Shown here: piece after piece, positions 75 through 11,001 of the stretch
Numbering within the stretch: the stretch's first letter is position 1
Layout of the letters: every line of letters begins with the position of its first letter
NCBI GenBank assembly: GCA_030679975.1
Contig: JAUXSL010000052.1
Span: forward strand, 1-32,376
Direction: 5' to 3'
Length of the DNA: 32,376 bases
From: Actinomycetota bacterium
Lineage (GTDB): Bacteria; Actinomycetota; Aquicultoria; CAJVYJ01; JAUVQD01
Made by a program: the position numbers and the translations under genes
The notes under the pieces: generated by a model
Database searches by the model: none
What the model was told of the DNA's origin: nothing
The model's input: the letters and a program-made list of their open reading frames with translations, nothing else

Positions 75-113
75 GTGGTACATTTTTACGCCGCCCTAAG
101 TGGTACATTTTTA
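75..113. repeat. Two 14-nt direct repeats near a possible mobile-element end
   Basis: The 14-mer GTGGTACATTTTTA occurs at 75-88 and again, identically, at 100-113, 25 bp apart. Repeated motifs of this look are found in the ends of some insertion sequences, IS21-type elements in particular (from memory). No transposase is present between the window edge and the tRNA gene, so this may be one end of an element lying to the left or a relic. The short inverted repeat CCCTCC/GGAGGG further left may belong to it. Confidence 0.45.
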
Positions 114-144
114 TCCTGCCATAGACACTCATCGGGCCTATAAA

Positions 145-173
145 GCAAAAAATGCCCTTATACAGGCATTTTC
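145..173 (-). terminator. Intrinsic terminator of the tRNA-Asn gene
   Basis: Read on the minus strand just after the tRNA 3' end, the sequence is AAAATGCC, an 8-nt loop, then GGCATTTT followed by more T residues. This is a stem with a U tract, the usual form of a Rho-independent terminator. It lies directly downstream of the tRNA. Confidence 0.75.
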
Positions 174-179
174 TGATTG

Positions 180-534
180 CTCCCCGGGTAAGACTCGAAC
201 TTACAACCCTTCGGTTACACTTAACCCCGTCGTTTCCGGCGGGAGTGGACTATCTCTTCACCATATCCGGCATGGCCGGACTTAGGTGCTGGGCGCTTCC
301 ACCACAAAACTGTGATGTACGACCTTACGGTCTAGTCTCTGCACGTTCCCCAGAAGCGTGATCGAAAATTAGACTTTCGACGCGTTCTACTCCCGGGGCT
401 TCGCTCAGGATTACCATTTCTCGATTATCTCGAGAGGCAGGCTTCCCTGAATTCACCCAGTGTTCATTTCCCGATTTCTCGAGAAAGCTGCATCGTTTTA
501 CAGCCGAATGCTCTACCGATTGAGCTACCGGGGA
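180..534 (-). tRNA. trnN: tRNA-Asn(GUU) gene split by a group I intron
   Basis: On the minus strand the 5' exon (534-500) has acceptor strand TCCCCGG, a D arm and the anticodon 5' strand TTCGG with loop CTGT. The 3' exon (217-180) supplies TAA, the pairing strand CCGAA, a five-base variable loop GGGTT, the T arm GTAAG-TTCGAGT-CTTAC, the acceptor strand CCGGGGA and discriminator G. Joining the exons gives the seven-base loop CTGTTAA with anticodon GTT, and every stem pairs. The short variable loop and G73 fit tRNA-Asn. They argue against tRNA-Tyr, which the unspliced GTA would suggest but which has a long variable arm in bacteria. The 3' CCA is not encoded: after the discriminator G the gene reads CAA. 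Confidence 0.93.
218..499 (-). ncRNA. Group I intron (282 nt) in the tRNA-Asn anticodon
   Basis: The intron lies between anticodon bases U35 and U36. P1 forms between exon GGCTGT (505-500) and the internal guide GCAGCT (491-486), with the expected U-G wobble at the splice site. The intron ends in G (218). P7 is formed by AGACTA (338-333) and TAGTCC (252-247), each in the context typical of the conserved R and S elements. P8 is a perfect TCCGGC/GCCGGA hairpin (280-266), and a Q-like segment AATCCTGAGCGAAGCC lies upstream. There is no homing endonuclease ORF, so it is a compact ribozyme, most like the subgroup IC3 introns of bacterial tRNAs. Self-splicing is inferred from structure. Confidence 0.92.
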
Positions 535-557: not shown

Positions 558-586
558 ATTATAACCCGGCCGCAAATTGCTGGCAA
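558..586 (-). promoter_or_regulatory. Sigma70-type promoter for the tRNA-Asn gene
   Basis: On the minus strand, TTGCCA (586-581) is followed after exactly 17 nt by a perfect TATAAT (563-558). The -10 box ends 24 nt before the mature tRNA 5' end, leaving a leader of roughly 17 nt. The rest of 541-774 shows no gene on either strand. Confidence 0.8.
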
Positions 587-10227: not shown

Positions 10228-11001
10228 TTGAACGACTGGCTTGAAGCCGCTAAAGAAATAGCGGTCGCCGCGGGCGACATGGTTAAAGAGATGGCCGCCT
10301 CGCGCCCCAAAGTGACCCATAAAGGTCCGGTCGATCTGGTTACCGAAGCCGATGTGCGCGCCGAGAAATACATCATCGGCGAGTTGCTGAGGCGTTTTCC
10401 CGGCCACCAAATACTGGCGGAAGAATCCGGCGGCACAGCTGACGCCGAGTACGTCTGGATAATCGATCCCATCGACGGCACGACCAACTACGCCCACGGC
10501 TTTCCCGTCTGGGCCGTTTCCATCGGCCTTTTTATCGATAAACGCCCGGCTGTCGGCGTCGTTTACGACCCGAACCTAGGTGAGCTTTTCGCCGCCGTCA
10601 AAGGCAGCGGCGCCGTCTTGAACGACAAACCGATAAGCGTTTCAACTGTCGGCAAAATGACCGACGGCCTGTTGGCGACCGGGTTCCCGTATACCCTCAG
10701 GGAAGGGCCACAGAGGATAATGTCCGATTTCTCGCAAATCTACCTGGCCTGTCAGGGGGTGCGCCGAGCCGGCGCCGCCACCATCGATCTCTGCGCCGTC
10801 GCCTGTGGCCGGTTCGACGGCTTTTGGGAAGTCGGCTTGAAGCCCTGGGATACGGCCGCCGCCGGGTTGATCGTCGAAGAGGCCGGCGGGCGGCTCTCTA
10901 AATACAGCGGCGGGTCTTTCGATCACTTTGTTCCCGAGATGGTCGCCTCCAATGGGCTCATCCACCAAGAACTCCTGGACATCCTTCAAAGACAAGATTG
11001 A
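10228..11001 (+). CDS. suhB: Inositol monophosphatase-family phosphatase
   Basis: About 257 residues. Metal-site motifs are LAEESGG, DPIDGTTNYAHG and WDTAAAGLIVEEAGG, all diagnostic of the lithium-sensitive Mg2+ phosphatase family (inositol monophosphatase, also fructose-1,6-bisphosphatase in some lineages). The reading frame has no ATG near the domain start. A TTG at 10228, with GAGGG nine bases upstream, gives MNDWLEAAKEIAVAAGDMVK, the normal N-terminus. It follows the rhodanese gene by 13 nt. Its job in a quinone operon is not obvious; it may make free inositol or dephosphorylate another metabolite. Confidence 0.83.
   Translation: MNDWLEAAKEIAVAAGDMVKEMAASRPKVTHKGPVDLVTEADVRAEKYIIGELLRRFPGHQILAEESGGTADAEYVWIIDPIDGTTNYAHGFPVWAVSIGLFIDKRPAVGVVYDPNLGELFAAVKGSGAVLNDKPISVSTVGKMTDGLLATGFPYTLREGPQRIMSDFSQIYLACQGVRRAGAATIDLCAVACGRFDGFWEVGLKPWDTAAAGLIVEEAGGRLSKYSGGSFDHFVPEMVASNGLIHQELLDILQRQD

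Follow-up and report, generated by a model that had tools for sequence, protein, structure and literature searches.

The window, a stretch of 32,376 nucleotides, carries a tRNA-Asn gene in two halves on its minus strand, 179 bases from the contig end of a MAG assembly. The gene and its immediate surroundings comprise the following features:

558-586, minus strand: sigma-70-like promoter, TTGCCA-17-TATAAT, from a consensus scan
500-534, minus strand: 5' exon of tRNA-Asn(GUU), nucleotides 1 to 35, ending ...CUGU (U35), placed by ARAGORN in intron mode and by alignment to intronless relatives
218-499, minus strand: group I intron of 282 nt, starting AAAACG and ending ...AAGUG with its terminal G at 218, boundaries from ARAGORN
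180-217, minus strand: 3' exon of tRNA-Asn, from U36 to the discriminator G73, CCA not encoded, placed by ARAGORN and by the empty-site alignment
143-179, minus strand: terminator-like hairpin with a U-rich 3' side, directly 3' of the tRNA

With introns allowed, ARAGORN reports tRNA-Asn(GUU) at c[179,534], where 282 nt of intron separate position 35 from position 36, and the joined exons fold as a tRNA with a GUU anticodon, U1-A72 and G73. Without introns it reports no tRNA in the window, and the Rfam tRNA model gives a marginal match at the locus (29.2 bits). The Rfam group I model (RF00028, Intron_gpI) matches positions 226-509 of the minus strand over the full model, with 84.1 bits (gathering threshold 50) and an E-value of 3e-20. 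Our family model R1, whose training set includes the window sequence itself, scores 134.7 bits.

A first-pass annotation, made from the sequence, had drawn a group I intron in tRNA-Asn(GUU) at this place and suggested the Rfam search. Its coordinates, 180-534 on the minus strand, are exact. ARAGORN and the empty-site relatives described below confirm the host, the 35/36 site and the length of 282 nt, and the group I assignment is borne out by the covariance match, the ARAGORN intron call, the same relatives and covariation across the family. The annotation had also expected a gene finder that ignores splicing to call Tyr(GUA) or to miss the gene: the default finder does miss it, but no Tyr(GUA) call appears, ARAGORN finding nothing.

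The promoter-like element matches the consensus at 11 of 12 positions and ends some 23 nt before the tRNA, in a region where the scan would yield about one qualifying site by chance. The hairpin on the opposite flank folds at -14.7 kcal/mol (z -4.0) and is absent from the list of the consensus scanner. Near the contig start, at window positions 76-114, GTGGTACATTTTTA is present twice and looks like transposon-end repeats, which may be the cause of the contig break.

Architecture of the predicted ribozyme

The intron can be resolved into the helices of a group I core:

486-505, minus strand: P1, exon GGCUGU (505-500) with the internal guide GCAGCU (491-486), from the sequence; local fold z -4.4
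468-485, minus strand: P2 hairpin with a GAAA loop, from the MFE fold; 20 double-change pair types in 42 alignment rows
289-460, minus strand: P3, CUGGGUG (460-454) with CGCCCAG (295-289), from the MFE fold; both sides changed in three of seven pairs
405-450, minus strand: P4, UCAGGG (450-445) with UCCUGA (410-405), enclosing P5 and its extension, from the MFE fold and covariation in 24 sequences
343-404, minus strand: P6 with a long P6a/P6b extension, from the MFE fold and covariation in 24 sequences
247-338, minus strand: P7, the guanosine-binding helix, AGACUA (338-333) with UAGUCC (252-247), forming a pseudoknot with P3; pairing in 100% of cells across 24 sequences
300-332, minus strand: a pair of additional hairpins, P7.1 (GACC-GUAA-GGUC, 332-321) and P7.2 (CAUCAC...GUGGUG, 317-300), located between P7 and P3, from the MFE fold
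259-288, minus strand: P8 hairpin, from the MFE fold; three of four pairs change on both sides
226-243, minus strand: P9 hairpin, from the sequence and the 42-row alignment, absent from the MFE fold

At the 5' splice site U35 (position 500) lies opposite G491 in a wobble pair, and the guide GCAGC is found in nearly all relatives. This U-G pair, the two P7 strands, the P8 hairpin and the terminal G (G218) had all been pointed out by the first-pass annotation and are present in the sequence. No convincing P10 pairing was found between U36-A37-A38 and ...CGAU. IC3-type bacterial tRNA introns are not known to have P7.1/P7.2 hairpins between P7 and P3, whereas the window intron has two; inserts at this place occur in part of the tRNA-Asn family, and other members are without them.

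Folded without constraints, the 355-nt precursor takes up an MFE structure that contains P1, P2, P3, P4, P5, P6 and P8 as well as the tRNA's acceptor, D and T arms (z = -6.4; none of 100 shuffles folds equally well). The structure of the locus is not due to chance. Across 24 sequences, 98.1% of cells are paired in the full structure including the P3/P7 pseudoknot, against 30-44% in controls with partners slid by one to three columns, a comparison in which the unslid version is favoured because the helix assignment started from the window sequence. Double-sided changes, which come from the other sequences, occur in 12 core-helix pairs (35 cells) compared with two to four pairs (four to seven cells) in the slid controls, and compensatory change in the core helices is also seen in the second alignment of 42 rows. 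P7 has one varying pair across the 24 sequences, and its covariation support is thin.

Empty sites, gene copy and predicted splicing

Seven genomes of the same order were compared. Three of them (G001, G002 and G003) have an uninterrupted tRNA-Asn, CTGTTAACC, which shares its anticodon arm with the predicted spliced tRNA and is 92-97% identical to it. An orthologous intron is present in G006, which belongs to another genus of the same family and has its tRNA halves at two contig ends. The empty sites and this ortholog therefore fix the splice sites independently of the ribozyme model. Presence of the intron is patchy among the relatives of the order. G001, whose tRNA-Asn is intronless, has a group I intron in its 23S rRNA (L128, 196-489).

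The host is taken to belong to Actinomycetota; among solved structures, its RpoB is most similar to entries regarded as RNA polymerases of actinobacteria. The genome of the window has 47 typed tRNA matches, which cover the other amino acids and include tRNA-Tyr(GUA) as a separate gene. The second, intact tRNA-Asn that had been raised as a possible objection was not found in the 95.8% complete assembly, where a search with the spliced tRNA returns these two halves as the only close matches. It is unlikely that a second copy lies in the remainder of the genome. As the only tRNA-Asn detected in a 96% complete genome is interrupted, the cell should depend on the predicted splicing. The closed chromosome of Nitrospira moscoviensis presents the same picture, with two tRNA-Asn halves as the only close matches and the next-best ones that we checked being tRNA-Lys and tRNA-Arg.

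Splicing would follow the two-step pathway that is established for group I introns. The 5' strand of the anticodon stem, GGCUGU, would pair with the guide GCAGCU as P1, and an external guanosine held in P7 would attack after U35. The freed 3'-OH of U35 would then attack after the terminal G, and the exons would join as CUGUUAA, a normal Asn anticodon loop, with CCA subsequently added enzymatically. Because P1 is built on the anticodon-stem strand, the unspliced RNA should form either P1 or the anticodon stem, not both at once.

We considered whether the locus could be dead, a tRNA-Asn pseudogene with a decayed intron, the functional tRNA-Asn lying in the missing 4% or so of the genome. At 95.8% completeness a second copy could have been missed, and the 16S rRNA too is absent from the assembly. 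Yet the stems of the tRNA and the core helices of the intron are all intact, promoter- and terminator-like elements stand on both flanks, a second genus has the orthologous intron, and the closed N. moscoviensis genome has no close tRNA-Asn match other than the copy with the intron; we regard a dead locus as quite improbable. An assembly chimera fusing two sequences inside the tRNA is harder still to credit: the MAG consists of 127 contigs and the gene is near a contig end, but the intron occupies the identical base position at about 70 other loci, including single-contig chromosomes. Equally far-fetched is removal by a tRNA-splicing endonuclease acting on a bulge-helix-bulge, with no ribozyme involved. 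The anticodon-loop position recalls archaeal introns, but the host is bacterial, the 282-nt insert has a full group I core (P3 to P8 and P7), and it lies at 35/36 rather than 37/38 with a U.G pair and a terminal G. We conclude that the single detected tRNA-Asn(GUU) gene of this genome is very probably split by a group I ribozyme belonging to a lineage of tRNA-Asn 35/36 introns, for which we infer splicing, self-catalysis and homing.

The intron family and its probable mobility

About 85,000 species genomes were scanned with a pattern for the 5' half of tRNA-Asn ending in CTGTA, which detects only introns starting with A and returned 70 stretches. Introns could be delimited in about 60 of these, all following CTGT, ending in G and continuing with TAA, and RF00028 confirms most of them. 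CTGT stands at the 5' site in every relative, by search design in L058-L127 and independently in L136-L158. A group I search of 397 relatives from the phylum found further tRNA-Asn introns, some with a first base other than A, and in the class of the window at least 11 of 36 genomes have the intron (G000, the window's genome, G006, G012, G013, G014, G018, G026, G027, G029, G030 and G034). Model R1 was trained on 24 bacterial members; of its 79 matches in the collected loci, 73 are in cellular tRNA-Asn genes, the window included. ARAGORN labels seven loci (L139-L141, L144-L146 and L158) as Thr, Ser, Tyr or His; manual inspection of the exons shows tRNA-Asn in each case (CTGT^...G^TAAC). Four pattern matches (L069, L109, L120 and L084) proved to be tRNA-Tyr or other genes and have no group I intron.

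The roughly 70 further introns at the identical 35/36 site come, by record title, from Nitrospirota, deltaproteobacteria, Desulfobacteraceae, Polyangiaceae, Bdellovibrionaceae, Omnitrophota, Patescibacteria (Collierbacteria and Roizmanbacteria), Actinobacteria, Chloroflexota, Aerophobetes and Marinimicrobia, and from DPANN archaea. A copy from WOR-3 is incompletely resolved, and a possible Bacteroidetes copy is cut off at a contig end. In a tree of 182 columns the window intron groups with those of its class-mates L158, L140 and L146 (support 0.76-0.85), and a larger clade (0.94) adds Aerophobetes, Omnitrophota and a deltaproteobacterium, other Actinomycetota introns falling elsewhere. This tree, short and with modest supports, is suggestive of transfer.

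Five DPANN contigs (L058, L070, L077, L095 and L100) also have the intron in tRNA-Asn genes. The archaeal hosts have G1-C72 where the bacterial ones have U1-A72, and the five introns, left out of a bacterial-only model, score 83-101 bits with it. L100 (Pacearchaeota) also encodes an MCM with an archaeal winged helix, which argues against misbinning of this contig; the other four are less certain. All 39 archaeal group I introns in a published survey are in rRNA (PMC6125680), whereas those on the five DPANN contigs are in tRNA-Asn.

Of the family's introns in the size range of about 420-590 nt, most contain an ORF of about 110-125 residues that begins a short way past the 5' splice site and ahead of the guide, thus in the P1 loop. 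Full-length copies keep the pattern CxxCGY...LE[FL]HH...CANCHRE.H. As putative HNH endonucleases these ORFs score 15.5-20.7 bits against the Pfam HNH model (PF01844), slightly short of its curated cut-off of 21.4. Actinobacterial and Pacearchaeota copies share 62% identity over 102 residues. As read from the sequence, the end of several ORFs runs through the guide, P2, P3 and P4 (...LQLPRETVVETSGEFREA). The window intron has no HNH ORF, its longest ORF being 43 residues. Judging by their ORFs and their distribution, the long members have probably invaded intronless tRNA-Asn genes by homing. The target GCUGU belongs to a stretch that is conserved in tRNA-Asn, and tRNA-Tyr also has the CUGU (in CUGUA). 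Beyond this, the window intron might still be mobile in its lineage, with another intron copy in the population providing an HNH endonuclease in trans. The ORF is present in the class-mates G029 and G030 and the intron is patchy in the order, but the window intron itself encodes nothing longer than 43 residues, and we find continued mobility of this kind doubtful.

Viral contigs contain both relatives of the HNH protein and tRNA introns. The former are encoded in 168 viral stretches (L178-L257); as proof of phage transfer they fail, none of the 34 tested lying inside an intron of the tRNA-Asn family. The phage-type tRNA cluster of L164 (3099-3209 and 447-561 minus) is interrupted twice by group I introns: tRNA-Tyr(GUA) at U35^A36, and a tRNA-Asn-like gene with poor pairing in its 3' half. 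A GIY-YIG-like ORF follows. The tRNA-Tyr intron may lie at the same place because CUGU is shared between the two tRNAs. The 256-kb contig L169 has a tRNA-Asn at 10742-10873 (minus strand) with a 198-nt group I-like intron that scores 60.7 bits with R1 and is not reported by Rfam at E 0.01. In L172, L174, L177 and L167 tRNA-Asn has insertions of 79 nt and 48 nt at 35/36, below group I size. The phage introns known at the time of one earlier study were all in protein-coding genes (PMC3984707).

Other tRNA and rRNA genes are also interrupted. An initiator-type tRNA-Met(CAU) in the genome of the window (C57:21760-22090, minus strand; L049:360-690) has a group I intron of about 256 nt (54 bits), for which visual inspection favours the site U33^C34, with P1 GGCU/GGCU and P10 CAU/AUG. 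Contig C87 of the same genome (L050; also L003 and L004) has an insertion-broken 23S rRNA fragment with two group I matches of lower score (39 and 30 bits), so that rRNA as well as tRNA genes seem to contain introns in this genome. Two Actinomycetota loci (L147 and L152) have a group I intron in the anticodon loop of tRNA-Gln(CUG), a host outside the published lists that we examined.

On balance it is somewhat more likely than not that a single mobile lineage, specialised on the tRNA-Asn anticodon through an HNH endonuclease in P1, extends across some ten bacterial phyla and into DPANN with phages as possible carriers; the window intron would be a member that lacks the endonuclease and that its host relies on. 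If this is true, the DPANN members would be the first archaeal tRNA group I introns. Having bacterial-like endonucleases, the archaeal introns open the transfer of a ribozyme between domains to direct testing.

Relation to known introns

Bacterial tRNA introns have been described mainly in tRNAs for Leu, Ile, Arg and fMet (PMC4033280, PMC3984707, PMC8450103, PMC4853749). We found no tRNA-Asn group I intron, bacterial or archaeal, in the searchable literature, where subscription journals are mostly outside the scope and absence is no proof; nor did we find there the host tRNA, site, endonuclease type or taxonomic breadth of this family. The first-pass suggestion that an Asn host is uncommon thus agrees with the literature searched but not with the genomes, in which the identical site is interrupted across many phyla. 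The novelty apparently lies in a broadly spread, undescribed tRNA-Asn intron lineage, the mechanism being ordinary group I splicing. The lineage adds to the few tRNAs known as intron hosts in bacteria and would as a whole merit a family description. In such genomes an essential tRNA gene is lost by the default tRNA finder. Nitrospira moscoviensis, cultured and with a closed genome, offers a tractable case of how a cell copes with an intron inside its only Asn anticodon and of how such an intron spreads.

One known bacterial anticodon-loop intron likewise splits the anticodon, at 34/35. It shares with the Asn intron the group I class and a P1 built on the 5' strand of the anticodon stem (host: PMC4033280). 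The window intron differs from it in its Asn host, its 35/36 site and the extra P7.1/P7.2 hairpins, and many Asn relatives differ in having a putative HNH ORF. Further group I introns of small size in the anticodon loops of bacterial tRNAs include those of Azoarcus tRNA-Ile(CAU), Synechocystis and Gloeobacter tRNA-fMet, and tRNA-Arg. In Synechocystis the intron contains a 150-codon ORF (PMC5733544), and PMC3984707 cites an endonuclease with specificity for the tRNA-fMet anticodon region. Hosts and sites in these introns are other than those of the Asn family, whose putative endonuclease is of the HNH type and about 115 residues long. A similarly wide distribution is known for the group I introns of tmRNA, which occur in 21 phyla at few subsites of one loop, few of them with endonucleases (PMC11915505). 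The tmRNA introns lie in the T-loop and are associated with LAGLIDADG proteins, whereas the Asn introns occupy one exact anticodon site and are associated with putative HNH proteins.
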